Origin: Acetomicrobium hydrogeniformans
Lineage (GTDB): Bacteria; Synergistota; Synergistia; Synergistales; JAFGMB01
Assembly (NCBI GenBank): GCA_016841745.1
Contig: JAENYO010000005.1
Coordinates: 22,439-86,438 of the forward strand
Length of the DNA stretch: 64,000 nucleotides
Direction of reading: 5' to 3'
The position numbers and the translations under genes are program-made. This document shows positions 20,615 to 36,651 of the stretch, in pieces. Position 1 is the stretch's first letter. Each line of letters begins with the position of its first letter. The notes under the pieces were generated by a model. The model had not been told where the DNA came from. It searched no databases and worked only from the letters and a program-made list of their open reading frames with translations.

Positions 20615-20660
20615 TGCTTATCTCCTCCTATGTCTAAAATAGACAATCACAATTTACCAC

Positions 20661-20708: not shown

Positions 20709-20730
20709 AGGAATAATATTATAAAGCAAA

Positions 20731-21309
20731 TCAGTATTTACTCTTCACCATTCCTCCACACAGCCACTGTGCGACCCTTTTTACCAGTATATTGCGTTTA
20801 TTTCCAAAAGCCCGCTGGGAATAGTGAAATATCTCTTCGATATCGCTCCATCTGGGCTTGCGTTTTACAAAGTAATATTTTTCAAGGATCTCCAGGGAGT
20901 CATAATCACAATCTTCTTGGGAATAAAGGATTATCTTCCTGTCGGTGATCTCAATCTCGGCCCCCAGGGTCTCGATAAAAGCAATAAGGGGATCTATCCT
21001 CTTCCTCAGGACTCGGATATCTTCATCCAGATCCTGCATTTCAAGAAACTTCTGGGCAGCAGGGACGGGAGTCTTTCCCCCGTCCACCAAACCCACATTA
21101 TCCTCTCCTGCCTTTGCCAATGGCCCCGTATAAATAGCCATGTCAGCAAGTTCCTTACGCCTTTGAGCCAGCATCCTGGTATGTGAGTGAAGGTTAAAGA
21201 TACAGAACTCAACGTACTGGAAGAGGCAGGAGGGAAGCCCTACCTCAATCTCAGTCTTTACCTGTACTGCCGAACCCGCCCGTACCTCTATGGGACTCTT
21301 CAAGGGCAT
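20731..21309 (-). CDS. Unknown early protein, possible late-transcription activator
   Basis: Up to 192 residues, start uncertain. An ATG at 21309 and a TTG at 21303 (GAGGTGG 6 nt upstream) overlap the end of dut by about 55 nt; an ATG at 21174 would avoid overlap but lacks a ribosome site. The C-terminal half has LDEDIRVLRKRIDPLIAFIE, a coiled-coil-like region, then YDSLEILEKYYFVKRKPRWSD and a basic QRAFGNKRNILVKRVAQWL end that resembles the sigma-like end of ArpU/RinA-type phage regulators. Its place at the end of the early operon fits a late-gene activator, but the family match is weak. Confidence 0.55.
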   Translation of the reverse strand: MPLKSPIEVRAGSAVQVKTEIEVGLPSCLFQYVEFCIFNLHSHTRMLAQRRKELADMAIYTGPLAKAGEDNVGLVDGGKTPVPAAQKFLEMQDLDEDIRVLRKRIDPLIAFIETLGAEIEITDRKIILYSQEDCDYDSLEILEKYYFVKRKPRWSDIEEIFHYSQRAFGNKRNILVKRVAQWLCGGMVKSKY

Positions 21310-21682
21310 CCACCTCTACAAAGCTTGCCTGAACGAAAGGCACTATCACCAGCTGGGCTATTCTCTCCCCTTCCTGGACCTCATAGTCTTCATCACCAAG
21401 GTTATGGAGGGTAACACCTATCTCTCCCCTGTATCCAGAATCCACTACTCCAGGGGCATTCGGGATGGTTATGCCGTGTTTCTTAGCAAGGCCGCTCCTG
21501 GGAACAATAAAGCCCACACAGTTATCCGGAAGCTGGATATGGACACCTGTGGGTATGAATATCCTTTTCCCTGCAGGAATGAGAGCACTAAAGGGGCTGC
21601 GGAGATCCGCGCCGGCATCGTTCTTCCTGGCATAGGTAGGCTTGAGATTTTTGTCTTTAAGTACAACTGGTATGGTGATCAT
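21251..21682 (-). CDS. dut: dUTP diphosphatase
   Basis: A 143-residue trimeric dUTPase converting dUTP to dUMP and diphosphate. Motifs are clear: NDAGADLRSP (motif 1), VPRSGLAKKHGI (2), PGVVDSGYRGEIGVTLHNLG (3, with the catalytic Asp), GERIAQLVIVP (4) and RGTGGFGSTG (5). The ATG overlaps the preceding stop as TAATG. It limits uracil in phage DNA; in some phages dUTPases also regulate mobile elements, for which nothing is seen here. Confidence 0.97.
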   Translation of the reverse strand: MITIPVVLKDKNLKPTYARKNDAGADLRSPFSALIPAGKRIFIPTGVHIQLPDNCVGFIVPRSGLAKKHGITIPNAPGVVDSGYRGEIGVTLHNLGDEDYEVQEGERIAQLVIVPFVQASFVEVDALEESHRGTGGFGSTGKD

Positions 21683-21888
21683 TACTTCGAATCCTCCTTT
21701 ATGCTTAGATCTTCGCCCCAGTCCATGGAAAGGGGTGCAAATTCAGTGATCTTAATTTCAGACGGATCTGATATGGATATGGGAACACTTCCTGCCATGA
21801 TCCCTGAAACATGGGAATCCAAATTGCCCATGCCTTCCAGGATGGCTCTCGTTTCCATGCCCTTAACCGTAATGTGATAAATCTTCAT
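21682..21888 (-). CDS. Unknown 68-residue phage protein
   Basis: MKIYHITVKGMETRAILEGM start, acidic C-terminus (MDWGEDLSIKEDSK). It is translationally coupled to dut by a one-base overlap. No recognised family; likely a small early protein. Confidence 0.6.
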   Translation of the reverse strand: MKIYHITVKGMETRAILEGMGNLDSHVSGIMAGSVPISISDPSEIKITEFAPLSMDWGEDLSIKEDSK

Positions 21889-21975
21889 GAGATATCCTCC
21901 TTCGTCGAGATAGCATCTACAGGGCTACGCTGTTATGTGCAATCACGTACTGATATCCGAATCTTCTACAGAGGC

Positions 21976-22851
21976 TCAGCCCACACCCTCTTTTTCTTCT
22001 ACATGCCCCTCTCTCTGAAGAAGTGTAATCATATCTTCATGCGATACGGCTTTTGAAGAACAGGTCTCTATTCTCCTTAAAGCCTCGGTAACATCTCCAA
22101 CATTCCGGTAGATCCTTATGCACTCTTCTCCGATCTCGGAATTATAAAGATCCTTCTTGAAGAGCATGAGGCTCAGCTTAACCTTGAACTCCTGAAGCGA
22201 ATCTTTTTTGGGAGAAGCAGGAAAATTTATCACTGTGGCCCCCTGTTCTGTTTCTGTTCTGTTCTGGTTACTGTTCTGTTCTGTATTGCAAGCCCCTACC
22301 AAACCCCTTGTAAGCCCCTTCAAATCTTGTTTTTCTGTTTCGAAGCCCCTTATAAGCCCCTTGGAAGAAATGTCATTTTCTACCTCGTTTGTGCCAAGAA
22401 TTCTGGAAAAAGGCCTGTATTTCTCCCAGAATGTGGCCGAAGTTTCAGGCTTGCAGTCCAGGGAAAGCCCTTTTGGAAGAATCCTTATGAGCTCTTCCAT
22501 GTAACGGCTGTATGGAGCAGAAGCTAACTGTTTAAAGGCACCCTTCACCTGGTTGATGTTCCTGAAAGGATTCCTGGAAAGAAAATTCCTTATGAACGTC
22601 ACTTCCTCTTCCTGGTCATAAAAGGCCATTCCTTGCTCCTGAAGTTCGGAGAAAAGCTCGTAGAATGCCTGTGGACTCTCTAGATCCAGATCATGCAGGG
22701 CATACTGAACCGGCAGCTTGAAATAGCCGATCATATTTCCGTGGGGCGACGAGAGCAGGTAGAGAAAAAGCATCTTGCCGCCATCGGACAGTTTCCGGAA
22801 TTTCCTGTCCTGCCAGATGGCCGCAGATATGGCACCATAACGACCGTTCAT
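21976..22851 (-). CDS. Phage replisome organiser / replication initiation protein
   Basis: A 291-residue protein whose N-terminal ~110 residues have the winged-helix start of phage replisome organisers (YGAISAAIWQDRKFRKLSDG, KMLFLYLLSSPHGNMIG). A variable polar linker with repeated KGLIRGFETEKQ / KGLTRGLVGACN and an NSNQNRTETEQG stretch follows, then a helical C-terminal domain. Such proteins bind the phage origin and load helicase. The linker-encoding DNA at ~22,200-22,400, with repeated aagcccctt and ctgttctg runs, may itself contain the origin, as in other phages. It overlaps the upstream gene by ATGA. Confidence 0.75.
   Translation of the reverse strand: MNGRYGAISAAIWQDRKFRKLSDGGKMLFLYLLSSPHGNMIGYFKLPVQYALHDLDLESPQAFYELFSELQEQGMAFYDQEEEVTFIRNFLSRNPFRNINQVKGAFKQLASAPYSRYMEELIRILPKGLSLDCKPETSATFWEKYRPFSRILGTNEVENDISSKGLIRGFETEKQDLKGLTRGLVGACNTEQNSNQNRTETEQGATVINFPASPKKDSLQEFKVKLSLMLFKKDLYNSEIGEECIRIYRNVGDVTEALRRIETCSSKAVSHEDMITLLQREGHVEEKEGVG
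22218..22365. repeat. Short iterons inside the replication gene, candidate phage origin
   Basis: Within the linker-coding part of the replisome organiser gene the plus strand has several ttctgttctg units (22,250-22,285) and several AAGCCCCTT-type units (22,290-22,365). Phage origins are often embedded as iterons in the initiator gene. Presence of the repeats is seen; origin function is inferred. Confidence 0.45.
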
Positions 22852-23177
22852 TTTTCCACCCCCACAAATTCAATGGGTGTTAAGTCCTCAAATCTAGGAG
22901 TCAGCACCCTATACTCCTTTAGATAAAGCTTCCCTGACTTTAGCCATTCCGTGATATACTCCTTGCCCTCTTTCAGGACCATTTCCCAGGCAAAATACTG
23001 ATATGCAAATACTGGATTTCTGCGTTCCCGGACTCGAAAATACCCCTCACACATGGCATCCCATTTACCTGTCCCTGGAGACTTGCGGAGGACAATCCCT
23101 GAAGGTTTACCCTCCACAAAGGCATCTATCCTCAGCTCACCTGATTGCCGGTAAGGCTTCGAAAAGGAGACTTCCAT
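22848..23177 (-). CDS. Unknown 109-residue early phage protein
   Basis: MEVSFSKPYRQSGELRIDAFV start; a basic centre (RKSPGTGKWDAMCEGYFRVRERR) and an aromatic C-terminus. Lies directly upstream of the replisome organiser and overlaps it by four bases (ATGA). Could be a single-strand or accessory replication protein; no family recognised. Confidence 0.6.
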   Translation of the reverse strand: MEVSFSKPYRQSGELRIDAFVEGKPSGIVLRKSPGTGKWDAMCEGYFRVRERRNPVFAYQYFAWEMVLKEGKEYITEWLKSGKLYLKEYRVLTPRFEDLTPIEFVGVEK

Positions 23178-23179
23178 CC

Positions 23180-23443
23180 TTATTCCTCCCGGGAATCAAG
23201 TACCGTGACTGACGGATCGAGTTCCGGGTAAAGAATATGCATCATCTGCCTCATGGCTATCTCCACATGGAACCTGGCAAGCTCCACCTTGTCATGGATA
23301 CTGCCTGTAGTCCGGGATCTCATTTCCATAAGTTTCAGTTCCTTTCTGAGAAAGCTTTCTCTCAGAGCTTCACATTCTTCAAGGATATCTTCATGAGAAT
23401 AAGACTTAATGTTAAGAATATTTTGTATTCCAATTTTATTCAT
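23180..23443 (-). CDS. Unknown 87-residue early phage protein
   Basis: A helical, charged protein (HEDILEECEALRESFLRKEL, DKVELARFHVEIAMRQMMHIL) that may form a helical hairpin. It is 2 nt upstream of the next gene in the early operon. No family recognised. Confidence 0.6.
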   Translation of the reverse strand: MNKIGIQNILNIKSYSHEDILEECEALRESFLRKELKLMEMRSRTTGSIHDKVELARFHVEIAMRQMMHILYPELDPSVTVLDSREE

Positions 23444-23520
23444 AATTTCTCCTTATAATGGGTTTTAGGGGAGACCCCTCCCTTAGAATAAATTTCTCAT
23501 GTGCCCTGTTTCCCCCCGGA

Positions 23521-23787
23521 TCAGGGCACATCCATTAGTGGCACAAGGATCTCCTGCCCCGGATAAATGATCGGGCTGATGCTGTTGATCGCCCGGATCA
23601 CATAAACAACCTTGCGCGGGTCCGCATGTGGAGAGTAGAATTTAGCAATGTTCCATAACGTTTCACCTGGGGCGACGATATGAACGGCTACATCAGATTC
23701 CAGAGCATCCCCATGCGTGCTTGATCCATAGGCGACCCCTGCCAGGATTCCTATGACCAGCACAAGGAACAGTAGCTTATTCATCAT
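23521..23787 (-). CDS. Exported or membrane-anchored LysM protein
   Basis: An 88-residue protein with a hydrophobic N-terminal segment (residues ~4-20, KLLFLVLVIGILAGVAYG) followed by a single LysM domain (VHIVAPGETLWNIAKFYSP ... INSISPIIYPGQEILVPL). The ATG at 23787 has AGGAGG 6 nt upstream. The architecture, a short anchor plus LysM, is that of YneA-type cell-division inhibitors, which are SOS-induced and often lie near LexA-like genes. A role in host-envelope or division control from the lysogeny region is inferred; a superinfection or lysis role is also possible. Confidence 0.8.
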   Translation of the reverse strand: MMNKLLFLVLVIGILAGVAYGSSTHGDALESDVAVHIVAPGETLWNIAKFYSPHADPRKVVYVIRAINSISPIIYPGQEILVPLMDVP

Positions 23788-23832
23788 CGTCGTCCTCCTG
23801 ATTACCAGGCATAACCGCATCGATGAAATCTT

Positions 23833-24033
23833 TCAGTTCTGAACTTCCCCGCATAGTTCCGCCTCCTGTTCTTTCTTCTTGAGCCAATCCCGGTAACCCT
23901 TGGCATTGCGGTAAACCCAGTCTGCAAAGCCTGGAAGATTCATGAGCTCATCTTCAAGAGCTGCAGCATATTCAGGATTGCTTCGGTCAAATCTGCATCG
24001 TTCCCCTATTTCATAAGCCCGTGTTTTTGCCAT
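23833..24033 (-). CDS. Unknown 66-residue phage protein
   Basis: MAKTRAYEIGERCRFDRSNP start, helical, with WVYRNAKGYRDWLKKKEQEAE near the end. It follows the antirepressor gene by 5 nt. No family recognised. Confidence 0.6.
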   Translation of the reverse strand: MAKTRAYEIGERCRFDRSNPEYAAALEDELMNLPGFADWVYRNAKGYRDWLKKKEQEAELCGEVQN

Positions 24034-24038
24034 AAGGT

Positions 24039-24797
24039 TTACCTCTCACCAATAAGGTGCATGTGCTGGTTCTCGAAACCCTTCTTGACTAACAACTTGC
24101 GGATGAAATCCACACCTCTCTGGTAGACAACCGTCTTTATGGTGATGCGTGTCTCTCCCTCTGGAGTTCTCCATTTCTGCTCGATGGTCCTGAAATAGTT
24201 CCTGTCGATGTACTCCTGGTAAGGGATGTTGTCAGACATGAGAACCTTATGATCCCGAAGGAACCTGAACAGGGTGTTCCGGCCTATGTTGCGGAAGTTG
24301 AGGACCTTGGCCACACTGCCAATATCAATGGCTGACTTTGAACCGGTCACTGCATCGAAAAACTCAACCTTAGGTTTCATGCTCTTGTTTTCAATGAGCA
24401 GTTTTTCCTTCTCTTCCTCTGCCTGGATAACCAGCATGGCCAGTTCCTTGCGGGAGATCTCCCTGGAATATGATCCGGTCCTCCGGATAGAAGGGATAAC
24501 GTCTCCAGCGATCCATTTCTGAAAAGGCAAAGCTGAGGGCTTGTCGCTCCTGGCAAGGAAGAAATAAAGCCCCTGCTCGGAAAGACAGAGCATTTCCTGC
24601 TCTCCCCCAGGGGTATCAATCGGTTTGATACCCTTCCATTCCATGGGAACATTTGTGATCAGCTGAGCAATACTGCTGCTCATTGCGTAACCCAAAACAC
24701 CACAGACATCCTTGGCCACCAACCAGGGATTGCACTTATCGTCTACAAAAGTACGGATCTGGTTTTCGTTATATTCAAAGACCTGCAGTTCGTTCAA
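24039..24797 (-). CDS. Phage antirepressor (Bro-N plus KilAC)
   Basis: A 252-residue protein with an N-terminal Bro domain (NPWLVAKDVCGVLGYAMSSSI and the GLYFFLARSDKPSALPFQKW signature, residues ~1-105), a coiled-coil linker (EEEKEKLLIENKSM) and a C-terminal KilAC domain (SIDIGSVAKVLNFRNIGRNTLF-like ... LLVKKGF). These antagonise the lysogenic repressor and promote lytic growth. A TTG at 24797 is chosen as start because AAGGAGG is 8 nt upstream; an ATG nine codons earlier lacks a site. It follows the Cro-like gene in the early leftward operon. Confidence 0.88.
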   Translation of the reverse strand: MNELQVFEYNENQIRTFVDDKCNPWLVAKDVCGVLGYAMSSSIAQLITNVPMEWKGIKPIDTPGGEQEMLCLSEQGLYFFLARSDKPSALPFQKWIAGDVIPSIRRTGSYSREISRKELAMLVIQAEEEKEKLLIENKSMKPKVEFFDAVTGSKSAIDIGSVAKVLNFRNIGRNTLFRFLRDHKVLMSDNIPYQEYIDRNYFRTIEQKWRTPEGETRITIKTVVYQRGVDFIRKLLVKKGFENQHMHLIGER

Positions 24798-24810
24798 TCC
24801 ACAACCCTCC

Positions 24811-25023
24811 TTATGCAGCCTCATTGGGCTGGATAATGTTCTCTGTAATGATTCCGGCGTTTCTGATCATCTCTTCCAGGGACCTGCAGAATTTCTTGCC
24901 TTCCGGTGTATCCGCTATTCCGTCCTGAAGATCCTCTATAATCGCCATTAACTCGGTTCCCTCGTCACACGCTTCGTATGCTTCCTTAACCGCCTTAAAA
25001 CAGTCCGCAAGAGCATGAATCAG
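24811..25023 (-). CDS. Small unknown protein, possible CTG start
   Basis: A 70-codon frame between the Cro-like and antirepressor genes. Its only in-frame start near the Cro stop is a CTG whose last two bases overlap the Cro TGA (CTGA), with AGGA 6 nt upstream. An internal ATG at 24948 would give 45 residues (MAIIEDLQDGIADTPEGKKF start). The peptide contains ADCFKAVKEAYEACDEG and EEMIRNAGIITENII and looks like real coding sequence. Stop TAA overlaps the ribosome site of the antirepressor. Function unknown. Confidence 0.55.
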   Translation of the reverse strand: MIHALADCFKAVKEAYEACDEGTELMAIIEDLQDGIADTPEGKKFCRSLEEMIRNAGIITENIIQPNEAA

Positions 25024-25271
25024 TTTGAATCCTGGATTATCTCCGTTCCTACGGACGGTGTAGGGTTTGAATCATCGTCTGTTACCAAATCGTCAATGGT
25101 GCAGCCGAACAATCTCGACATTTCTTTCAGGTTTTCTATCCCTGGATCAACGGTATAAAGGGGATTTATTGACTCCCATCTGTAGACTGAGTTAGCAGTA
25201 ACTTCCATTTTTTCTGCCAGATTTTGTTGAGTCCAACCTTTCTTTTTTCTCTGTATAGATATACCTTTCAT
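25020..25271 (-). CDS. Cro-like XRE regulator
   Basis: An 83-residue protein with a helix-turn-helix at about residues 12-36 (KGWTQQNLAEKMEVTANSVYRWE in part) and an acidic C-terminal tail. It is divergent from the S24-type repressor across a ~190-bp control region and heads the leftward early operon, the place of Cro in lambdoid switches. It is expected to shut off the repressor promoter in the lytic state. Confidence 0.85.
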   Translation of the reverse strand: MKGISIQRKKKGWTQQNLAEKMEVTANSVYRWESINPLYTVDPGIENLKEMSRLFGCTIDDLVTDDDSNPTPSVGTEIIQDSN

Positions 25272-25296
25272 GGTTTCACCTCCTAGCCTGAACTAT

Positions 25297-25435
25297 ATTA
25301 AGGTTTATACTTGTTTAACAATACTAGCCTTAATTTTTTTAAGGTTCAATAGGCCTTAAGTCCCATCTCTACACATTATTAAGGTTTTTAACATGCGGAA
25401 CCATTAATAAAATCCATATTGAAAAGACCCTTAAT
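25297..25435. promoter_or_regulatory. Lysogeny switch operator array (TTAAGG / CCTTAA half-sites)
   Basis: Between the divergent Cro-like and repressor genes six copies of the same half-site are seen: ATTAAGG 25297, CCTTAAT 25328, TTAAGG 25339, CCTTAAG 25354, ATTAAGG 25378 and CCTTAAT 25429. The second and third face each other across a short T run and make an inverted pair. The arrangement fits cooperative binding by the two regulators. Sites are seen; assignment to a protein is inferred. Confidence 0.75.
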
Positions 25436-25463
25436 AAAATGTAGAGTTGTGTGGGTGATGAAT

Positions 25464-26174
25464 ATGTCATTAGGAAAGAGAATTAAAGAGATTAGAATCA
25501 AGAGGAAAATCAAACAAAAAGAACTTGCCCAAATACTGGGAGTATCCGAAAACACCATGTATCGCTGGGAAGCAGGGTTGAACGCACCTTCAGATGAAGA
25601 TAAGGGTCGCTTAGCAAAGATCCTCGGAGTATCTATTGCCTACATCATGGGAGAGTCAGACGAACCACAGCGGCCACAAACAAATGTAGATATTTCCAGC
25701 GTTAAGGATGTTGTTTCAATCCCACTGCTGGACTCAACAGCTATAGCTTGTGCAGGATTTGGAAACGGAGGCATGGAAGGAATAATTCTCGAAGCCACAG
25801 AATCTATTATGGTCCCCCTTGAAGACCTTGGTTATATTGGAGAACATAAACCTTTTGCAATCCGCGTAGAAGGAGACAGCATGAATGAAGCAGGAATATC
25901 TGATGGATCAAGGATTGCAGTAAATCCGGAAGAAGAAGTCTACAATGGTGATTCTGTCCTGGTGAAATGGGGTCGCCGCGGGGATGTTGCCGTGAAATGG
26001 TATTACAACTATGAAGACAGGATTGAACTGCGGAGCTCTAACCCCGCTAAATATCCGCCTATCATCCTTAGCAAAAAAGACATCGATGCCGAAATGGAAG
26101 CCGGAAACCACGACTACTTCCACATCTGTGGCAAAGTAATGGTAGTAAACATGAAACCCAAGAAAGGGATTTAG
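25464..26174 (+). CDS. Phage repressor, XRE HTH plus S24 (LexA-like) domain
   Basis: A 236-residue CI-type repressor. The N-terminal HTH (QKELAQILGVSENTMYRWEAG in part, residues ~12-37) resembles the Cro-like protein opposite, so they probably share operators. The C-terminal S24 domain has the catalytic Ser in VEGDSMNEAG and Lys in VAVKWYYNY, so RecA-stimulated self-cleavage is expected. ATG at 25464 (GGGTG 6 nt upstream) or 25458 is the likely start; an upstream ATG at 25419 lies in the operator region. The pair with Cro and the Bro antirepressor forms the main lysogeny switch. Confidence 0.92.
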   Translation: MSLGKRIKEIRIKRKIKQKELAQILGVSENTMYRWEAGLNAPSDEDKGRLAKILGVSIAYIMGESDEPQRPQTNVDISSVKDVVSIPLLDSTAIACAGFGNGGMEGIILEATESIMVPLEDLGYIGEHKPFAIRVEGDSMNEAGISDGSRIAVNPEEEVYNGDSVLVKWGRRGDVAVKWYYNYEDRIELRSSNPAKYPPIILSKKDIDAEMEAGNHDYFHICGKVMVVNMKPKKGI

Positions 26175-26382
26175 TACCTGGCATTACCAAGAGTGAAAGA
26201 ACATTACGAGAGAAAGTAATCCGAATCCACTCAGAGAGTACAACTTTCCTTACTATCCTCCTTGATTGGGGCAACTCCATGATTTGCTTTCAGATCAAAA
26301 ACTAGAATAAAACCTTGCAATTTGTAATTGATAATATTTGTTAAACTACCAAAGATATGTGAACAAAGGGGAGGAATGTCAT
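26175..26382. other. AT-rich gap between repressor and dGTPase genes
   Basis: About 200 bp with no supported gene. It marks the change from phage control genes to the AT-rich accessory block and must contain the promoter for the dGTPase operon, but no consensus promoter is convincing by eye. Confidence 0.4.
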
Positions 26383-27765
26383 TTGAGAACATGGTCAAAT
26401 CTGTTAAATAGCAAAAGGTTTAGGGATACAGATCAGGATCATAATGATAAGCGAGATCAGTTTGAAAGAGACTACGATAGGATTACTTATTGTTCATCTT
26501 TTAGAAGACTACAAGACAAAACTCAAGTCTTTCCTTTAGAAAGAGGAGATTATGTTCGCACCAGACTTACTCATTCACTTGAGGTATCTTCTTTAGCAAG
26601 ATCCATCGGAACAGATGTTGCAAGACACTTAATTGAAAAAAATATGATTACCGAAACAAGGGAAGATAATATCAATAAGATTGATGACTATTTTGCTGGA
26701 ATCCTATCCTCAGCAGCACTAATTCATGATTTAGGAAATCCCCCTTTCGGACATTTTGGAGAAGATGCAATAAAGAATTTTTTTGACGATTATTTTAAAG
26801 AACATAAAAAAGTACTATGTACCGAAAAAGATAAAGCGAAAAGGGAAGACTTTCTTCATTTTGACGGTAACCCTCAGTCTTTTCGAATAGTGACTAGTTT
26901 ACAATATCTCAAGGATAAATTTGGATTGAATTTGACATATGCCACATTAGGAACTGTATTAAAATACCCGTGTTCTTCTGTCGAAATAAATAAGGAGAAT
27001 AAGTGTCAAAAAAAATGTGGTTATTTCCAATCAGAAAAAGAAACATTTGGCCGGATGGAACAAGAGCTGCATCTTGATACGTTTAGACATCCTTTAACAT
27101 TCCTATTAGAAGCAGCAGATGACATTGCCTATTTTGCAGGTGACATTGAAGACGGCTTGAAGCAAAAAACCTTTACCTGGGAACAATTTCAGGGTTTTTT
27201 GGAAAATAAGGCTAAGAAAAATAAAATGATGGACGATTGTTTCAAGCTATCTTCGAAGAACTACGAGAAACTCAAAAATGATAAATTCCCAGAACCCGAA
27301 ATAGGCACAATTCAGCTTTTTAGAATTAAAGCACAGTCCATGATGCTTAGAGCATGTATAAACGAATTTTTAAGTCACTATAAAGAAATTCTAGAGGGCA
27401 AATACAATAAAGACTTACTCGAATCTTCCGATGCTTCCGAATTTAGTAAGTTGTTGAAAAAGTTATCAGTTGAACATGTATACAGTTCCGACAAGGTTTT
27501 GCTGACAGAAATAGCAGGTAAGAAAGTAATAGAAGGACTCCTCTCAGCATTTGTTAGTTGTGTAATGTCTGAATCTTACATGGACTCAAGTACTTACGAA
27601 GGGAAACTATTTCAAATTATCTCTCCTAACTTCCGCTATGTGTTTTCAAACTGGACAGATCAGGGTGAATATGCGAAACTTCAACTTGTAACAGATTTTA
27701 TTTCAGGAATGACCGACCTTTACGCTGTAGACCTTTTTCAAAAGATAACAGGAGTCACAATCTAA
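26383..27765 (+). CDS. dGTPase-family HD phosphohydrolase, probable defence gene
   Basis: A 460-residue protein of the dGTP triphosphohydrolase family (dGTP to deoxyguanosine and triphosphate). It begins RTWSNLLNSKRFRD and has YCSSFRRLQDKTQVFPLE at ~36-53, the metal-binding His in RLTHSLEV (64), the HD pair in LIHDLGNPPFGHFGE (115-116) and further D residues in EAADDIAYFAGDIEDGL. A TTG at 26383 is preferred, with GGAGG 8 nt upstream. dGTPases are known to block phages by depleting dGTP. Here it is inside a prophage, AT-rich relative to late genes, and 11 nt upstream of a nucleotidyltransferase. Confidence 0.92.
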   Translation: MRTWSNLLNSKRFRDTDQDHNDKRDQFERDYDRITYCSSFRRLQDKTQVFPLERGDYVRTRLTHSLEVSSLARSIGTDVARHLIEKNMITETREDNINKIDDYFAGILSSAALIHDLGNPPFGHFGEDAIKNFFDDYFKEHKKVLCTEKDKAKREDFLHFDGNPQSFRIVTSLQYLKDKFGLNLTYATLGTVLKYPCSSVEINKENKCQKKCGYFQSEKETFGRMEQELHLDTFRHPLTFLLEAADDIAYFAGDIEDGLKQKTFTWEQFQGFLENKAKKNKMMDDCFKLSSKNYEKLKNDKFPEPEIGTIQLFRIKAQSMMLRACINEFLSHYKEILEGKYNKDLLESSDASEFSKLLKKLSVEHVYSSDKVLLTEIAGKKVIEGLLSAFVSCVMSESYMDSSTYEGKLFQIISPNFRYVFSNWTDQGEYAKLQLVTDFISGMTDLYAVDLFQKITGVTI

Positions 27766-27776
27766 GGAGCCTAGAG

Positions 27777-28475
27777 ATGTTAACTTATTCCGATACCTCT
27801 AAAAAAGTATCTCAATATATCTCTGACTTTATGGCTGGAAAGCGTGAAGTTAGAGAATGTTTGGATAGTTTGTCCAAAAGTGGAGATCTAATTCTTTTTG
27901 GAGGAGCAATAAGAGATATCGTTTGTGGTAACAAACCAAGAGACTATGATATTGTTGTTTCTACATCCTCTGAAAATCTTATTTCGATATTATCTTCATA
28001 TCCACATAAGAGGAATAGATTCGGGGGAGTTCACTTATTCCTTAATGATGTTAAATTAGACATTTGGGCCATTGAATCAACATGGGCTTTTCAAAAGAAA
28101 TTGTTGGATTCAAAAACTGAGAACCTGACTAAGAGTGTCTTTTTCAATTTAGATGCTATTGCTATAAACTTAACAAAGAACATACTATATGGAAATATCT
28201 TTTTTCAAGCGTTATCCTCAAGAACTTTGGACATAGTGCTAGAGAATAATCCCTTCCCTGATTTGTGCATATTACGCGCATTTGTTCTTAAGGAAAAATA
28301 TAATATGTCCTTCTCTCAACGAATGAAAAACTATATTCTCGATCATTGTACAGATGTATCTAAGACATTAAGTAATTTAACTTCTATTCAACAAAGTCAC
28401 TATGGATATCAATATTACAATCGGAACCAATTAAGCAAACATCTTTCCTATGTTTATCAAAAATTCACTCCTTAA
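27777..28475 (+). CDS. CCA/poly(A)-polymerase-type nucleotidyltransferase domain protein
   Basis: A 232-residue protein with the class II nucleotidyltransferase head: LFGGAIRDIVCG (GGxxRD at 42-47), RDYDIVV (metal-binding D56 and D58) and KLDIWAI (third acidic residue D95). The triad looks intact. It is much shorter than tRNA CCA-adding enzymes (~400 residues) and lacks their long body and tail domains, so it is unlikely to be the housekeeping enzyme. AAGGAG sits 7 nt before the ATG. It is in an operon with the dGTPase, followed by a strong terminator. A role modifying tRNA or another RNA during phage defence is inferred. Confidence 0.8.
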   Translation: MLTYSDTSKKVSQYISDFMAGKREVRECLDSLSKSGDLILFGGAIRDIVCGNKPRDYDIVVSTSSENLISILSSYPHKRNRFGGVHLFLNDVKLDIWAIESTWAFQKKLLDSKTENLTKSVFFNLDAIAINLTKNILYGNIFFQALSSRTLDIVLENNPFPDLCILRAFVLKEKYNMSFSQRMKNYILDHCTDVSKTLSNLTSIQQSHYGYQYYNRNQLSKHLSYVYQKFTP

Positions 28476-28524
28476 ATGATGTTTGTAATCCATATTACCT
28501 TACACTTCTGTGAGACATAATTAT

Positions 28525-28569
28525 AAAAAGATTCTAGCTTTACAATCAATGCTAGAATCTTTTTATTTT
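28525..28569 (+). terminator. Terminator of the dGTPase-nucleotidyltransferase operon
   Basis: A perfect 14-bp stem AAAAAGATTCTAGC / GCTAGAATCTTTTT with a 12-nt loop, ending in a T-rich run, 50 nt after the nucleotidyltransferase stop. Confidence 0.93.
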
Positions 28570-28661
28570 GACTTTCCTGCAAACATACCCCTCGAAAAAG
28601 GGTCCAATTGAAAAGAGGTCAAAAATCATTGAGAAGATTTCCAGTAATTTGCTTTTGACTC

Positions 28662-29018
28662 TTGATTCTAACGACACCCAGCCCGGCCTCAACCTGGCAA
28701 GGTCTCGAAGTAGATGATGGAAGCACTTGGAACCAGATGGACTCCTCAGAAAAGAGACCTAACATTACAGGAATGATTGAAGGACTAAAGTTCCGGGATG
28801 GCCCCATGGGCCCCTGGAACGCAGCAACAAAGGATTTGTCGATTTACATTAAGAGAGTGAACGGGTATTATGCAGAATCAGAGAACCTCAATATCCCTGT
28901 TGTATTAATGTTTGATGTCTTCAATACGGACATAAACGATTCCTGGGAAAACAACCAGGAAAAAGCGTTCAGACTAGAGTTTTTAAGAGAGAATTCCGAA
29001 GATGGACAACAAGGATAA
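28662..29018 (+). pseudogene. Unrecognised 118-codon frame, possibly a gene remnant
   Basis: An open frame starting only with a TTG lacking a ribosome site (WQGLEVDDGSTWNQMDSSEK ... EFLRENSEDGQQG). The peptide is normal in composition and the frame is long for this AT-rich stretch, so it may be the 3' remnant of a larger gene whose start was lost when the defence block was inserted. It converges with the restriction gene. Not recognised; it could be non-coding. Confidence 0.35.
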
Positions 29019-29085
29019 TAGGAAGCAAAAGCAGATCGACCAATCCAAGAAAATACAACATTGCTAATAAAAGCAGATTTTTTCT

Positions 29086-32064
29086 CTACTTTGACAAAAC
29101 TTCATGAATATCTATTGCTACTTTAAAATTCACTCCAAGAGCATTGAAATGAGCCTGGCCACATTCGATCTTTCTATTCTCACTTTCTCGACGTTGGTCT
29201 CTATCATGAGTACCCTTAGTCTCTCGAACTAGGTATAACTTTTCTTCACTCTCGGTAACGATTGCCCAATCAGGGTTATAACTCCCCATAGGCGTTGGCA
29301 CAACGAACCAGCGGGGCAATTTGCAGAAAAATTTAACATTTTCATTAGAATCCAGTTTTTCTGCTACTTCTCTTTCTACTTCAGAATCAAAGGGAATGTA
29401 GTTATAAGGAGTCCTATCGTCACTACTCTGGATCTCATATAACCGAGACAAGTACTCCTCTACTTCATTTTCCTTGAAAAGTCGCATTTCATAGCACTGC
29501 CCTTCAATCTTTTCGTATTTAATCCCATCTACTACTAACTCATGTAAAGCTTTGTTGACCGTCTTTGCGACTTGTGACATGAACTCCTGAGGATTTGAAG
29601 TAAATTCTCCTAGCCGTCCTGAACGTTTCAGTATTTCCACAAGAGTTCCTCTCGTAACCTCTGTTTCTCTTTGCAAAAATGCAAGGATATCTGGCAGGGG
29701 TGAGCTTAATTTAACTGTTTCTGTTTTGGTACTCAACACCCTAATGCTCTCAACACCAGATTTATTAATATCGACTTCATTTTTATCGATAATCAGACTA
29801 ACCGGATGGATAGGATCCATATTGGTAATCTTTTCGACAGCACAGATAATTAGATCTTCAGTAGCAAACTCAACCGAAAATCTCGTTTTTTTATTTATTC
29901 GTTCCCATAATGTCTTGAAATCATCGTTAAGTTCCACTCTTTTATTGAATTTCAGAACTCGTCTTTCTCTGACATTAACAACACGGTTCTGAAATATATA
30001 GCGTTTCATTTCTTCGGTTATTTGTGAACGTAAGTAGATAAATTGTTCGGGCAACGCCAGTTCAAACCCTCTTGTTTCAGGAGCAAATTTATCTGTTAGA
30101 TCTCCTGATTCTTTAAGGTACCCCTCAGCAACTAATGATTGCCATATCTGTTCTGAAACATCCTGACCAATTTGTTGATTTGTCTCAGGTTTAATTAAAC
30201 GAGCAAAGGCAATTTTTGCTAATCGGCCAAACTTAAAATCACCGCCAAGATCTTTTTCTATATCATCCTGTAACCCCTTTGCATATTCTTCAAACGTTTC
30301 ACTGGCAATTACGGTAAGCTTGTTTATATTGTCATCGTATATTCGAATTCCTTCACTATTCACTGGCAGGCGAAGACCTCTTCCTAAAGTCTGCCTACGT
30401 TCTCTATCTGTCCCAATTTCTCTGAGTGTACAGATTTGGAAAACATTAGGATTGTCCCACCCCTCTCTTAATGCGGAGTGGCTAAAAATGAACCTTAAAG
30501 GCTCATCTGAAGAGAGCAAACGTTCTTTATCCTTCATAATAAGCTCATAAGTTTCCTCGTCAGCCTTGGTATTCCCGGAAGAATCTTTCAGGCCAACAAT
30601 CTTGCCCCTCTTTTTATCTACAGAAAAATAACCATCGTGAACTTCTCCTGCAGAATAGGGTAACAGCCCTTTGTATAGCGGATGTTCAGATAATTGGGCA
30701 TAAGCATTCTCAAACCATTGGGCTAATTTACCCTTCTGAGAATTTCCTTGTCCATCATACCAACGATAATTTGAAACTTTATCAATAAAAAATAGAGAAA
30801 GGACTTTAATACCTTTATCTTTGAACTTCTTTTCTTTTTTAAAATGTTCTTCCACAGTCTGGTAGATCTGTGTTTTTAATACCTCTTCACTCATCCCTCC
30901 CTCTTCTTGGTGAGGCTGAAGGATTTTTCCATTGGTAAATTCAACATGCGCTACCCCTTCTTCCGCACATATATTTGAAACAATGTATCCTTCGTAGCCG
31001 GGATGATTTGTTTCTCTGCTTATATCTGTACCTTGTCTAAGGGTGATTATTTTTTTCTTTGGGGTACCATTTCTATCTTCATAAATACTGACCTTTGCAT
31101 GAGGAGTTTTTACCCCTTTTGCATAACCAATGCTATTTAGGCAAATATATGCATCTGGCTTAACTCCATCTGAAATAACAGAGGCTACCTCAATTTGTTT
31201 TACCAGTTTCATATCATAAGCCTGAATTGGGTCTAACTTATAAAGGAGGTTGTAAGGGGTAATATGGGTGGCAGAATATCTTAAACAAAGCAAAGGATTG
31301 AGGGTATTAATGGCCCTTTTCGCTTTGGGGGTATTGTCAACACTCTGCGGCTCATCGATTATTACAATCGGATTTGCAGCTTGAACATATTCGATAGGTC
31401 GACGGCCAGACATCCTGTCCTGTTCTTGATGGATTACATTGAGCTTTTTCTTCTGTTTTTCGGTTAGCTCTGAATGATCATCTATATTCCCAGCATCTTT
31501 CTGAAACGCCTGGATATTAATTATCATGATTTGTATTTCATTACTTCCAGCAAATTGCCTCACTTTGCTAAAATCCTTGGAACGATAGACAAAATGATCA
31601 AAGGGCACGTTATTGTATAAACCTTTAAAATGTTCTCCCATAAGATCAATTGAAGAAAGGACACCTTCTCGGATTGCCACAGATGGGACAACGATAATGA
31701 ACTTTTTAAACCCATATTTTTTGTTCAATTCGAAAATAGTTCTCAGGTAAACATACGTTTTTCCTGTTCCTGTTTCCATCTCAACGGAGAAATTGGGAAA
31801 ATCATACTCAGGAGAATCTTCAAGCCTTGCGGACTTTGGGATAGCATTACGCTCTTGAACTGAATTGAGGGTACTCAACAGATCTTTTGTTTCTAAGAAG
31901 AGCTGATTACCAATACCCAATTCCGAAAAAAACATGCCGTTTCCTCTTGAGAAACTTACTTCAAATTCGCTTTTCCCAGATGGCAGTCCTTGAAAAAGAT
32001 CCACAACAGAGTAAATGGCATCTAATTGATATTCAAGATTTGAGTCAAATTTGAGCTTTATCAT
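29086..32064 (-). CDS. res: Type III restriction enzyme, Res subunit
   Basis: A 992-residue restriction subunit. The SF2 helicase/ATPase part has Walker A METGTGKTYVYL (ETGTGKT at 97-103), a DEPQ box in IVIIDEPQSVDN, SATHITPY, and motif VI-like GTDRERRQTLGRGLRLP. The C-terminal nuclease has the PD-(D/E)xK pattern NPDWAIVTES ... LYLVRETKGTHD near residues 940-965. It acts with the Mod subunit, moving along DNA from unmethylated sites and cutting. It is 12 nt downstream of mod. All expected motifs are intact, so the enzyme looks functional. Confidence 0.95.
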   Translation of the reverse strand: MIKLKFDSNLEYQLDAIYSVVDLFQGLPSGKSEFEVSFSRGNGMFFSELGIGNQLFLETKDLLSTLNSVQERNAIPKSARLEDSPEYDFPNFSVEMETGTGKTYVYLRTIFELNKKYGFKKFIIVVPSVAIREGVLSSIDLMGEHFKGLYNNVPFDHFVYRSKDFSKVRQFAGSNEIQIMIINIQAFQKDAGNIDDHSELTEKQKKKLNVIHQEQDRMSGRRPIEYVQAANPIVIIDEPQSVDNTPKAKRAINTLNPLLCLRYSATHITPYNLLYKLDPIQAYDMKLVKQIEVASVISDGVKPDAYICLNSIGYAKGVKTPHAKVSIYEDRNGTPKKKIITLRQGTDISRETNHPGYEGYIVSNICAEEGVAHVEFTNGKILQPHQEEGGMSEEVLKTQIYQTVEEHFKKEKKFKDKGIKVLSLFFIDKVSNYRWYDGQGNSQKGKLAQWFENAYAQLSEHPLYKGLLPYSAGEVHDGYFSVDKKRGKIVGLKDSSGNTKADEETYELIMKDKERLLSSDEPLRFIFSHSALREGWDNPNVFQICTLREIGTDRERRQTLGRGLRLPVNSEGIRIYDDNINKLTVIASETFEEYAKGLQDDIEKDLGGDFKFGRLAKIAFARLIKPETNQQIGQDVSEQIWQSLVAEGYLKESGDLTDKFAPETRGFELALPEQFIYLRSQITEEMKRYIFQNRVVNVRERRVLKFNKRVELNDDFKTLWERINKKTRFSVEFATEDLIICAVEKITNMDPIHPVSLIIDKNEVDINKSGVESIRVLSTKTETVKLSSPLPDILAFLQRETEVTRGTLVEILKRSGRLGEFTSNPQEFMSQVAKTVNKALHELVVDGIKYEKIEGQCYEMRLFKENEVEEYLSRLYEIQSSDDRTPYNYIPFDSEVEREVAEKLDSNENVKFFCKLPRWFVVPTPMGSYNPDWAIVTESEEKLYLVRETKGTHDRDQRRESENRKIECGQAHFNALGVNFKVAIDIHEVLSK

Positions 32065-32075
32065 TAGTTCAGCCC

Positions 32076-34046
32076 TTATACAGTCCTGAAAATAATGCGG
32101 TCAGTCTTATCACGATCCTGGTTTATCGCAGAAAAGGTCTGCATAGCATTTGCTTTAAGCTGGTCATTACCATGAAAACCACGGTCAAGACAGATAAACT
32201 GTTTTGGTTTAAATTCAGCCACTGCCTCAATTAATTGATGAGATATATCATCTTCCAAACAAACAAGAAGAGATCCTTCGGCTATTGAAAACACTGTTTT
32301 GTTCGCTAAGGTAAGTCTTTCAACTTTATCGGATAGCATCAGACCGGATTTTAGCAGAATTTCGTAAAGGATATCTTCTTGACTTGCGTCTTCATCCATA
32401 TTGAAAAGATGCTTCTGAATCGCATTTAAGAGCTCTTCCTCTGAAATATCAGAACTCAACTGATCCCATACTTTAAAATTCGACTTATTTAATTTAAAGA
32501 CTTTAAATCCCAAGTCTAAATTCTTCTGATCTTTTTCTTCAGCAGAAGGGAGGGATAACTGATCAGTCGTTGTTTCTTGCTCAGTTTCTATTTTTCTAAT
32601 GACTCTTCTGATTCTTTCTTTACCAATATCAGCAATCGTCTTGAATCCTGATTTATATGCCTCTGATTTTTCATCACAGGGTTCGGGAAGTTGAACCATA
32701 ATAAAATTAAGATTGGAATTATCTTCATTATTGAGGTCTAGAACAGCATGAGCAGTAGTACAAGATCCAGAAAAGAAATCAAGGATTATATCTTCATCTT
32801 TTGAAGATATCTGAAGAACTCTCTTTAACAAACCTGTTGGCTTTGGGTTGTCAAAAGGTGCATTTCCCTGAAATAATCTTTTCAATTCTTTACGAGCATT
32901 ATCAGTATGCCCAACCTCTTGATAAGACCAATAACTTGTAGGCACAATACCTTGCTGCACCTCTTTCAAGTATCGTTTGAGTTGAGGTGCACCCCTTCCT
33001 TCTTTTCCGAAGAACACACGTCCTTCTTCTATCCATTTATCTATTGTCTCTTTATTCGTAAGCCAGCAACGTCCTTTAGCTGGTAAAAATTTGACTCCAG
33101 TATCTGGATTTTCTATTTCAAATATGTAGGATTCAGAAACCGTTTTGACCGTTAAATTATCCGGTCGCCATTTCTCTCTTCCATCATTATCATCATATTT
33201 GTACAAGGAATCTTGTTTTTCTGTTCGGGGCAATAAAAATCGGTTAAATAAACCCGATTTTTGATACACAAGGATATTGTCGTGCATGGGTGGAATACCT
33301 TTTGCATCATTTGAGGCGGCATATTTTTTATGCCAAATTATATCCACAACAAAATTTTCTTCTCCAAAGATCTCATCACATAATTCACGAAGATTTTTCA
33401 TCTCATTATCATCAATAGAGATAAAAATGACTCCATCATCCTTAAGAAGATTTCGCGCAAGATAGAGCCTAGGATACATCATATTTAGCCACTTCGTATG
33501 AAAACGACCTTCATTAGGAGTATTGGTAGAAAATTTCTTTCCCTCGTCATCTACTAAACCCGCATAAGCCAGATAGGTATCCAGTGATTCTGAATATTTG
33601 TCAGGATATATAAACTCTTTTCCTGTGTTATAGGGAGGATCAATATAAATCATCTTGATCTTTCCATAATAAGATTTCTGCAGGAGCTTAAGGACCTCCA
33701 GATTATCTCCCTCAATAAACAAATTCTTTGTCTCGTCAAAATTTACAGATTCTTCCATGCATGGCTTGAGAGTTGCCAGAGAGGGTTCCTGAATGAGCTT
33801 CATGCAATCTTTCTTTCCAGGCCAATCCATTCCATAATGCTCTCTACGACTTTCATAAGTATCGCTAAAAGAACCCAACTCTGCTTTCAGTTTTTCGAAA
33901 TCAATGTTTTGTACAAACTCTCCGTTTTCGTTAATTGTTTCAGTAAATATTGAAGGGAAAAGTGATTTGAGTTTTTCTTTATTATTTTTTGAAATGCTCA
34001 TGCTTTCGAGGTTTAAACGTTCAGGAATATTTGCTTTCATATTCAT
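32076..34046 (-). CDS. mod: Type III DNA methyltransferase, Mod subunit
   Basis: A 656-residue beta-class adenine-N6 methyltransferase: catalytic DPPYNTG (DPPY at 136-139) precedes the AdoMet-binding DFFSGSCTTAHAVLDL near residue 430, the order typical of type III Mod. Between them lies the variable target-recognition region (~240-400), which sets the methylated sequence and cannot be predicted here. It pairs with res downstream and protects host DNA. Upstream it is divergent from the serine integrase. The pair forms the second half of the prophage accessory block. Confidence 0.95.
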   Translation of the reverse strand: MNMKANIPERLNLESMSISKNNKEKLKSLFPSIFTETINENGEFVQNIDFEKLKAELGSFSDTYESRREHYGMDWPGKKDCMKLIQEPSLATLKPCMEESVNFDETKNLFIEGDNLEVLKLLQKSYYGKIKMIYIDPPYNTGKEFIYPDKYSESLDTYLAYAGLVDDEGKKFSTNTPNEGRFHTKWLNMMYPRLYLARNLLKDDGVIFISIDDNEMKNLRELCDEIFGEENFVVDIIWHKKYAASNDAKGIPPMHDNILVYQKSGLFNRFLLPRTEKQDSLYKYDDNDGREKWRPDNLTVKTVSESYIFEIENPDTGVKFLPAKGRCWLTNKETIDKWIEEGRVFFGKEGRGAPQLKRYLKEVQQGIVPTSYWSYQEVGHTDNARKELKRLFQGNAPFDNPKPTGLLKRVLQISSKDEDIILDFFSGSCTTAHAVLDLNNEDNSNLNFIMVQLPEPCDEKSEAYKSGFKTIADIGKERIRRVIRKIETEQETTTDQLSLPSAEEKDQKNLDLGFKVFKLNKSNFKVWDQLSSDISEEELLNAIQKHLFNMDEDASQEDILYEILLKSGLMLSDKVERLTLANKTVFSIAEGSLLVCLEDDISHQLIEAVAEFKPKQFICLDRGFHGNDQLKANAMQTFSAINQDRDKTDRIIFRTV

Positions 34047-34307
34047 AACTGAATCCCCCTGCTAATATCTCCTACACAGACGTGGATTTTGTAGGGAACG
34101 AATTAATCTTATCACCACAACTATTATAATAACTAATCAAATTAGGTTTCAGATTCGATAGTAAAATTCATGTTCAGATCAACCCTTCCAGCCGATCTTC
34201 CCGCAATTGCATTATATCTCTCCATTAGTCGAGATATTGGACATGAAAAACTAGAACTAATAAAGGACATGGTCTTCTTGTAATTCTTCCCATCTAGTTT
34301 TGGGGAC

Positions 34308-34335
34308 TTTGAGAAATTTGTGTAAAAGTTATAAT
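34308..34335 (+). promoter_or_regulatory. Candidate sigma-70-type promoter of the integrase
   Basis: TTTGAG at 34308-34313 and a perfect TATAAT at 34330-34335 with 16-bp spacing, about 80 nt before the integrase start. The -35 is weak. Confidence 0.5.
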
Positions 34336-34400
34336 ATATGAAAACTCAAAGAAGAATATTGACACAAACATTATACCAAGTAAATTATGCATAAAATTTT

Positions 34401-34407
34401 AAGGGAG
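34401..34407 (+). promoter_or_regulatory. Ribosome binding site fixing the integrase start
   Basis: AAGGGAG lies 6 nt before the ATG at 34414. An in-frame ATG at 34387 is upstream of this site and is therefore not the likely start. Confidence 0.8.
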
Positions 34408-34413
34408 AAGCTT

Positions 34414-35964
34414 ATGATTCCAGCAGCAGTTTACGCCCGGGAATCCATAGATGATAGCCAGAGCAAACATGCATCTATCCCGGCTCAATTAGAAGAGATC
34501 CGCCGATACGCAAAACAGAATAACTATGAGATCATCTCGGAATACACAGACCCTGCCATGCGTGGATGGGATAACTCCCGCCCTGCCCTGGACAAGATCC
34601 TACAGGCTACTAGGATTAAGGACTGCCCCTTCAAAGCCATTCTTGTCTGGGATCTCAGCCGTTTCTATCGTGATGCCGGCAGCGCCATAACCATAGATGA
34701 AGAGCTGTTCGCCCATGGCATAATACTCTGCTCCGTTACAGAAGGGTACATCGAGGGAGAAGAAGGACTTCTTGCCCGTGGATTCAAACATATAGCCAAT
34801 CAATACTACTCTATCCAGCTGGGGCGTTCCGTCCTCCGTGGTCTGAAACACTGCGTATCCCAGGGATATGCAGCCACAGGCTTCCCCCCATATGGATATA
34901 AAAAGATACCTGTATTTGACGAACGAAATAAGGTACATATGAAATACTCCGTAGACTCTTCTGCAGCTGCCGTAGTAAGACGGATCTATGAAATGTATGC
35001 CAGTGGTGAATGGTCTTATGCCCGGATAGCAAAACAGCTTAATGCTGAACATATTCCCTCTCCGGCAGGGAAACAATGGGGAAACGACACAATATATAAG
35101 ATCCTCGTGAGGCATACCCAGACATACCTGGGAAACATGGTTTACAACAAAACCCAACTCAACCAAAAGCATCGCATCCGTAAAAAGAAACCTCCGGAGG
35201 AATGGGTGATCTGTGAAAACTCCCATGAACCCATAATTACCCAGGAAATGGCAGACACGGTAGCACGAATCAGAGCTCAGGGAGAAAGATCAGGATCGTG
35301 GAGGGTTCAGAGGTTTGTATTGCTCCGGGGAATATTGGAGTGTGGCAACTGTGGACGGCGTATGTCTTCCAAAACAAACGGCAGTGGATATTACTACTAC
35401 TATTGCCCCCGGAAGGTTTATGCCAAAAGCATCGGAATTGAAAATAGCTGTTTCCAGGAATGGATCCGCATGGATAGACTAGACCCTGTAGTTTCCTCCG
35501 CTGTCCTGGATGAGATCTGTGTAAAGGATTTTGGTAAGGTCCTAGGCAGGGTGTATGATCAGAAAGCAAAGTCTCAAAAGAAAACAATGGCAGGTAAAAA
35601 GAAGGAAATAGACAAGCGCCTTGAAGTCCTGCAATCTCAAAAGAAAAACATACTTAATGCCATAGCGGACGGACTCCCTTTCGCTGCAGCCAAAGACAAG
35701 ATGATGTCCATAGAAGATTCCATTGAAATATGCAAAAAAGAACTGTCTGAACTTATGGAAACAGGAGGCTTTGAAGAAGAAAGAGAGAATGCTATGATGC
35801 TGGCACAAATGATAGCCCACATTGACAGGCATTATCTTGAGGAAACTCCCCATGAATTACGCAAGCTGCTACTCCTCCTGGTGGATAAAATCACCATCAG
35901 GAACGGAGAAGCCACAATCCATTGGAACATCGGCCTTCCCAAGCTTTGTATTCAATATCGCTAA
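34414..35964 (+). CDS. int: Large serine recombinase, prophage integrase
   Basis: A 516-residue large serine recombinase. The N-terminal resolvase domain has the catalytic Ser at about residue 11 in VYARESIDDSQ and the conserved Arg in WDLSRFYRD. Then follow the recombinase domain (YGYKKIPVFDE, IRRIYEMYASGEWSYARIAKQLN-type), a zinc ribbon (LECGNCGRRM ... YYCPRK ... SCF) and a long C-terminal coiled coil. Such enzymes integrate phages at attB without host factors and often target protein genes. The stop codon is at the very edge of the prophage, one base from the disrupted yvrJ, so this is the integrase and the right att junction is adjacent. Confidence 0.95.
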   Translation: MIPAAVYARESIDDSQSKHASIPAQLEEIRRYAKQNNYEIISEYTDPAMRGWDNSRPALDKILQATRIKDCPFKAILVWDLSRFYRDAGSAITIDEELFAHGIILCSVTEGYIEGEEGLLARGFKHIANQYYSIQLGRSVLRGLKHCVSQGYAATGFPPYGYKKIPVFDERNKVHMKYSVDSSAAAVVRRIYEMYASGEWSYARIAKQLNAEHIPSPAGKQWGNDTIYKILVRHTQTYLGNMVYNKTQLNQKHRIRKKKPPEEWVICENSHEPIITQEMADTVARIRAQGERSGSWRVQRFVLLRGILECGNCGRRMSSKTNGSGYYYYYCPRKVYAKSIGIENSCFQEWIRMDRLDPVVSSAVLDEICVKDFGKVLGRVYDQKAKSQKKTMAGKKKEIDKRLEVLQSQKKNILNAIADGLPFAAAKDKMMSIEDSIEICKKELSELMETGGFEEERENAMMLAQMIAHIDRHYLEETPHELRKLLLLLVDKITIRNGEATIHWNIGLPKLCIQYR

Positions 35965-36040
35965 ACATACGGACTAATAGATACGCTGCTACGGCTACGG
36001 CAAAACCGCTCTGGATTGCTGATGAGACAAATTCTTCCAA
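35897..36040 (-). pseudogene. yvrJ-family gene truncated by prophage integration
   Basis: A TTG at 36040 with GGGGGGTG 7 nt upstream starts MEEFVSSAIQSGFAVAVAAY then LLVRM, the N-terminal membrane helix of the YvrJ family. After residue 25 the frame enters the complement of the integrase gene and ends at 35897, giving an unrelated tail (FSDIEYKAWEGRCSNGL). The native C-terminal part should lie at the left end of the prophage. YvrJ genes normally follow DUF1659 and DUF2922 genes, exactly as here. Confidence 0.8.
35955..35980. other. Right attachment junction (attR) of the prophage, approximate
   Basis: The integrase ends at 35964 and host yvrJ sequence, read on the minus strand, is intact only down to about 35,965 (ending YLLVRM). 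The crossover should be a 2-bp core within this stretch. The exact core cannot be set without the left junction, which lies outside the window. Confidence 0.7.
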
Positions 36041-36183: not shown

Positions 36184-36387
36184 TTAACCGATAAGCTCGG
36201 TTACGGTGCTTTCATTTATTTCGGCACTCAAAATGGAATTGATATCATCCACAAAGATGGAATTGTCGATGATGGACTGCATGGCGGCCTGTACCTCGGC
36301 AGGAGTAAGACCATCCTTGGGGTACTTTAAAGAAATTGACATGGTGTCATTGTCACTTGTTCCAAATACCATTCTCAGAGTTTTCAA
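36184..36387 (-). CDS. DUF2922 family protein
   Basis: A 67-residue protein (KTLRMVFGTSDNDTMSISLK, then a helix with PAEVQAAMQSIIDN and FVDDINSILSAEIN) matching the DUF2922 pattern. A TTG start follows GGGGAGGTGAG. It forms an operon with a DUF1659 gene and the broken yvrJ. These three-gene sets are common in anaerobic Bacillota and related bacteria; their function is not known. Confidence 0.85.
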   Translation of the reverse strand: MKTLRMVFGTSDNDTMSISLKYPKDGLTPAEVQAAMQSIIDNSIFVDDINSILSAEINESTVTELIG

Positions 36388-36429: not shown

Positions 36430-36651
36430 TTAAACAGCTATGACCGCGTCTGTGTCGATCTTCTGGGTTGTATAAAGGGGAACGTTGATAACACCGGCAA
36501 GGGCTGAAGCTACTGCCTCCACCGCATCTGCCGTGGCAGCGGAATTAACTCCTCTCAAGGTCTGACTGGAAAGCTGGGGTTTGCCCCACTCGTCAGAACC
36601 GATCTGAAGCTTGAGGACGAGCTTGCTTTCTACTGGCTGAAAATTGGCCAT
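36430..36651 (-). CDS. DUF1659 family protein
   Basis: A 73-residue protein starting MANFQPVESKLVLKLQIG with TLRGVNSAATADAVEAVASA, the DUF1659 pattern. GGAGGTGATAGAAG precedes the ATG. First gene of the DUF1659-DUF2922-yvrJ operon; function unknown. Confidence 0.85.
   Translation of the reverse strand: MANFQPVESKLVLKLQIGSDEWGKPQLSSQTLRGVNSAATADAVEAVASALAGVINVPLYTTQKIDTDAVIAV

Follow-up and report, generated by a model that had tools for sequence, protein, structure and literature searches.

Complete prophages that lie inside a host gene and restore it by precise excision are known from the A118-like phages in comK of Listeria, for which regulated excision or a phenotype has been shown. In a survey of large serine recombinases (LSRs), the targets lay inside conserved coding sequences and were enriched in competence genes (PMC10083194). 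The gene considered here, yvrJ, is transcribed in Bacillus subtilis by the SigO-RsoA sigma system (PMC8103513), which sets a precedent for a link between yvrJ and a sigma factor. In the four papers found to mention yvrJ, judged by titles and abstracts, no prophage in this gene is described.

We analyzed a 64,000 nt stretch of DNA (the window) from Acetomicrobium hydrogeniformans, whose genome assembly comprises 3.04 Mb in 15 contigs. The window corresponds to C4:22439-86438 of its scaffold (C4 coordinate = window coordinate + 22438); positions without prefix are those of the window. The relatives compared were 183 genomes of the same order (188 in the phylum), and matches to the Pfam profile YvrJ (PF12841) were judged by its cut-off of 29.5 bits.

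We have high confidence that yvrJ was split when a temperate siphovirus used its large serine integrase to insert at a CT dinucleotide within codons 20-21. The features read directly from the sequence are both gene halves, a short att core, a phage gene set, the lack of any further yvrJ in this genome and, in relatives, an undivided yvrJ within the intact gene order.

The two halves of yvrJ

The host-derived N-terminal half of yvrJ lies at 35981..36040 on the minus strand, assigned by direct reading of the DNA and by Pfam YvrJ, with a TTG start at 36040 (MEEFVSSAIQSGFAVAVAAY). The frame from this start reads MEEFVSSAIQSGFAVAVAAYLLVRM and thereafter departs from the YvrJ family; in the lysogen it comprises 47 aa, with the hydrophobic helix kept through LLVRM and a foreign tail. 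The C-terminal half, reading LLVRMEKRLEELTQAISELRFAIAGQGVQKSGGQ up to its stop codon, was found outside the window but on the same scaffold at C4:19331-19435, adjoining the left end of the phage genes at a distance of 39 kb from the N half. It thus provides the yvrJ remainder at the left prophage end on which the earlier note had made its reading depend.

A YvrJ profile search of the whole genome matched exactly two places, C4:58404-58445 (profile positions 6-19) and C4:19376-19435 (profile positions 15-34), both on the minus strand, and no further yvrJ besides the two halves was found on any contig. The truncated lysogen frame covers profile positions 5-19 (24.5 bits) and the C half positions 15-34 (32.1 bits). 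Joined in silico at the shared CT, the halves yield an uninterrupted 54-aa protein that scores 55.3 bits, above the cut-off. Over 47 aa it shares 85% identity with the intact YvrJ of G001 (20 codons are identical, 21 differ synonymously and 6 non-synonymously), the nearest relative compared, which offers the closest empty site and belongs to the same family but to another genus. Because the matched profile parts are complementary, the joined score is higher and the product matches that of G001, the two halves are pieces of one gene. Judged by these matches, the host yvrJ is split by the prophage, with the 5′ half at attR and the 3′ half at attL, and both halves are still undamaged. The claims made earlier, that the prophage is integrated inside yvrJ and that excision would restore the gene, agree with the halves at both ends, with the in-frame joined product and with the intact gene in relatives.

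A scaffold gap of 10 N lies inside the prophage just left of the window (C4:22429-22438), so the joining of the two ends rests partly on scaffolding. As the prophage ends are placed on one scaffold and are complementary, we trust their linkage. A tail-fibre-like repetitive frame (repeat EGADGDWYIQRTSWHIWEKVSGSWTDRG; L004:4369-5031) is broken by this gap and continues on both sides.

Gene content of the prophage

The whole prophage extends over C4:19434-58416 (38,983 bp). Its left 3.0 kb precede the window, in which it occupies positions 1..35980, as delimited by the att cores and by phage genes assigned with PHROGs and Pfam. According to PHROGs, the minus strand carries tail genes at 994..8155 (J-like tail tip, tape measure and major tail protein), the genes for the major head protein, head protease, portal, and large and small terminase subunits at 11393..16912, and an anti-repressor gene at 24039..24824 (phrog_130, E=8.2e-64). 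A CI/LexA-like phage repressor is encoded on the plus strand at 25419..26174 (phrog_4, E=2.7e-38). Other phage genes recognized by PHROGs or Pfam encode a helicase loader, a dUTPase, an HNH endonuclease and an endolysin, and there is a holin gene (Phage_holin_3_3, 33.1 bits). With an integrase, repressor, terminase, portal, head, tail tape measure and endolysin, the element has the gene set of a temperate siphovirus. The frames for integrase, repressor, head, tail and lysis are all open, without obvious decay. For the large terminase subunit no relative was found in viral contigs, and for the capsid none in the order.

Next to the integrase lies an AT-rich cargo block (38% G+C vs 47% in the late genes). 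It consists of a type III restriction-modification system at 29086-34046, with the restriction subunit (res, 29086..32064; PADLOC, E=6.1e-289) and the methyltransferase (mod, 32076..34046; PADLOC, E=5.9e-212) both on the minus strand, and a nearby gene for a dGTPase-like HD protein (26338-27765).

The serine integrase and its relatives

The large serine integrase is encoded on the plus strand at 34414..35964 (phrog_95, E=5.5e-86), with a likely ATG start at 34414 after GGGAGA. Its resolvase (PF00239, 68 bits), recombinase (PF07508, 85.2 bits) and zinc ribbon (PF13408, 44.9 bits) domains all score above cut-off. The gene abuts attR, with its TAA stop at 35962-35964; the last codon that matches YvrJ, the ATG of LLVRM on the minus strand, occupies 35966-35968, which leaves the single base between them that had been noticed before.

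No sequence found in phage records or in the 188 phylum genomes reaches 35% identity to this integrase. Viral contigs yielded no relative, and genome contigs one distant relative (23%, Alteribacter). Within the order, related integrases (34%) in G017 and G039 sit in a deaminase-like gene, the frame of which is cut at a PC motif (L058:9051-10992, L059:7792-9865); the other half of this truncated gene was not found within the 20 kb read. Another related integrase (34%), in G160, sits in comM/yifB, cut just before the VLFLDE motif. Since these integrases lie in conserved codons of ordinary genes, in line with the LSR survey, insertion into yvrJ is typical of the integrase class. In G159, comM is also found in two pieces (L062, L086-L089 for G160 and G159).

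Attachment sites and crossover

The att cores are located at C4:19434-19435 (left) and C4:58417-58418 (right). On the minus strand, attL reads ...AAGTCGGACTTGT-CT-GCTGGTGCGCATGGAAAAG and attR reads ...GCAGCGTAT-CT-ATTAGTCCGTATGTTTAGC. In the alignment of attL and attR, only 2-3 contiguous bases are common to the two ends at the junction and a long identical direct repeat is missing, which fits a serine rather than a tyrosine integrase. We placed the attR crossover dinucleotide (CT on the minus strand, AG on the plus strand) at 35979..35980 by the symmetry of the reconstructed attP. Among six shared dinucleotides, only CT gives a clearly symmetric attP, with 8/12 arm positions symmetric about it (shuffle p=0.003; 10/20, p=0.015) and with CGGACT and AGTCCG equidistant from it. 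A very short shared core together with an inverted-repeat-like attP is what is expected for an LSR. The same examination revealed no clear symmetry in attB itself. Because six shared dinucleotides are possible, the exact crossover base is a best estimate. The CT falls within the Tyr20-Leu21 codons, where YvrJ is most conserved.

The phage-side arm of attR (35966..35978, minus strand, from the attL/attR alignment) continues the yvrJ frame through the remainder of LLVRM. The LLVRM codons are CTA TTA GTC CGT ATG on the phage side of attR and CTG CTG GTG CGC ATG in the host half. With CT as the core, the best-supported crossover, LLVRM past the core in the lysogen would be phage DNA that encodes the same residues. 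The earlier note had placed attB in the yvrJ coding sequence just after the membrane helix, and its location within the gene, where the hydrophobic helix ends, stands; the boundary given there lay too far into the phage, because the LLVRM beyond the core would belong to phage DNA, and the best crossover is shifted by 11-14 bp towards the interior of yvrJ.

The motif GTnCG is common to attP and attB on the LLVRM side and has an approximate counterpart in the other attP arm, as both arms contain AGTCCG; it is probably an integrase-binding motif. The chance of the LLVRM match is ~5e-6 for a random arm, and ~0.002 once the shared GTnCG is granted. As the motif is approximated in the other attP arm, a common integrase-binding motif would explain most of the match. 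No such mimicry was found at the attR of the comM target used for comparison, and deliberate mimicry of LLVRM by attP is a weak lead. Viral contigs contained no attP match.

The host gene cluster

Two host genes on the minus strand precede the N half of yvrJ, a DUF1659 gene (36430..36651; PF07872, 61.4 bits), the first of the cluster, and a DUF2922 gene (36184..36387; PF11148, 78.7 bits). Both match well above the Pfam cut-offs, in accordance with the host order DUF1659-DUF2922-yvrJ described before. Directly after the C half of yvrJ follow the host genes for an M15 peptidase (C4:19003-19305) and a sigma factor (C4:18488-18985).

YvrJ matches over the cut-off were obtained in 82 of the 183 order genomes, mostly covering profile positions 5-34. 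In all 30 of the best order relatives examined, yvrJ is full-length; the short form, which would speak against an interrupted gene, was not seen among these 30. An M15 and/or sigma gene follows soon after yvrJ, within the fetched flank, in 27 of these 30 loci, and the usual order is DUF1659-DUF2922-yvrJ-M15 peptidase-sigma factor. Because this order is conserved in relatives and parted here, the prophage cuts a conserved cluster inside yvrJ, separating DUF1659-DUF2922 from M15 peptidase-sigma factor. No second split yvrJ, and thus no recurrence at the same site, was recognized among the 183 order genomes. Matches to the C half only, in G068, G003 and G020, were rejected as split yvrJ since they belong to unrelated, long coiled-coil membrane proteins.

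The conserved cluster (L003:18488-19435 at this locus) combines a small helix-plus-coil protein and a sigma factor with a peptidase of the endolysin type that has no obvious signal peptide. By analogy, the layout from DUF1659 to the sigma gene may resemble a sigma-linked lysis cassette. YvrJ gave no match to Pfam holin profiles up to E=10, so a holin role would be an analogy of layout only.

Between DUF2922 and yvrJ, two strong hairpins are located at 36087-36183 (fold z-score -3.1). The hairpin sequence GATGGGCTGAAGCCCATC occurs again at C14:1130-1154 and, as a 25-mer with 3 mismatches, at C4:239892-239916, and because of this recurrence looks like a REP-like dispersed repeat. The locus has no Rfam match.

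Alternative explanations

In the explanation we favor, the serine integrase would have inserted the phage at the CT in yvrJ, leaving the 5′ half at the right end (attR) and the 3′ half at the left end (attL). YvrJ would be cut in the lysogen to a 47-aa product with its membrane helix and a foreign tail, while the M15 and sigma genes would lose their upstream partners and instead follow the phage late genes on the same strand. Upon excision, the integrase together with a directionality factor would rebuild the 54-aa YvrJ.

This has to be weighed against the 10-N gap, an attB that is not clearly symmetric, a nearest empty site in another genus and a second recombinase in the middle of the prophage. 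The latter, a tyrosine integrase-like protein of 192 aa comprising the catalytic part only (18828-19406; phrog_216 integrase match, E=2.2e-57), might have made the insertion instead. We find this scarcely credible, as it is encoded 16 kb from attR and lacks the N-terminal arm-binding domain, whereas the serine integrase gene lies directly at attR. The 2-3 contiguous bases shared here also fall short of the identical core left by tyrosine integrases. That the 47-aa frame is a natural short YvrJ next to a coincidental integrase would fit its retained helix through LLVRM; this reading is refuted by the matching C half at the other prophage end and almost certainly wrong, considering also that 30 of 30 relatives have the long form and that, towards its 3′ end, the short frame runs antisense through the integrase gene. 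A prophage that is inert or dying, its excision lost because the directionality factor is gone or the host lineage fixed, and yvrJ permanently knocked out, appears doubtful to us. No directionality factor could be named, HK97-type phages with cargo can become grounded, and neither a capsid relative in the order nor attP in viral contigs was found; the open frames from integrase to lysis, free of obvious decay, point the other way.

Another reading is active lysogeny, in which a host cue would excise the prophage without lysis, restore yvrJ and rejoin DUF1659-DUF2922 to the M15 and sigma genes. Excision restores the interrupted gene exactly in the in silico joining, both halves are undamaged, the target lies in a cluster with a sigma factor, B. 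subtilis yvrJ is under SigO-RsoA (PMC8103513), and comparable switches such as phi-Sa3 in hlb and yin in yabG are known (PMC6597384; PMC10747680). However, a recent insertion would leave the halves equally undamaged, LSR prophages are commonly seen in coding genes, the search of the 183 genomes turned up a single recognizable occupied site, and because the phage has structural and lysis genes, ordinary induction suffices. A regulated switch therefore appears improbable, and its use by the host is speculation, which the sequence allows and carries no further. We regard it as very unlikely that the prophage serves as a reversible control element of a sigma-linked, lysis-like cluster (YvrJ, the M15 endolysin-type peptidase and the sigma factor), with a stub made via the LLVRM of attP. 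Since the M15 and sigma genes follow the late and lysis genes of the phage on the same strand, they would then be governed by phage induction and revert to host control upon excision; through the LLVRM re-encoded by the attP arm, the lysogen would retain a YvrJ stub inserted in the membrane. Were excision regulated, it would offer a first handle on the role of YvrJ and of the sigma-linked cluster.

Comparison with known systems

By all appearances, the element is an ordinary prophage of the large-serine-integrase kind, in a target gene that seems to be unreported. It adds yvrJ to the integration targets and defines an attachment site and its integrase, with a precision of a few bases, in a lineage whose phages have been little studied. 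With LSR prophages in coding genes of the phiC31/A118/TP901-1 type (PMC10083194) it shares an integrase of resolvase, recombinase and zinc ribbon beside attR, a 2-bp core and a conserved coding target; it differs in the target, yvrJ, and in an integrase distant from all those found. Like phi-Sa3 in hlb of Staphylococcus, it is a complete phage interrupting a host gene that precise excision would restore; for phi-Sa3, by contrast, regulated excision or a phenotype is established. The skin, yin and SP-beta elements in sporulation genes (PMC10747680, PMC8270828) likewise carry a recombinase and split a functional gene, here a sigma-linked one; in contrast to their targets, yvrJ is no sporulation gene, developmental excision is theirs, and the element described here has the head, tail and lysis genes of a full phage. 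Helper-embedded satellites in phage late genes (PMC10111431) also interrupt a gene whose expression waits for excision, but in a helper prophage and with another integrase lineage, whereas here the interrupted gene belongs to a host chromosomal cluster.
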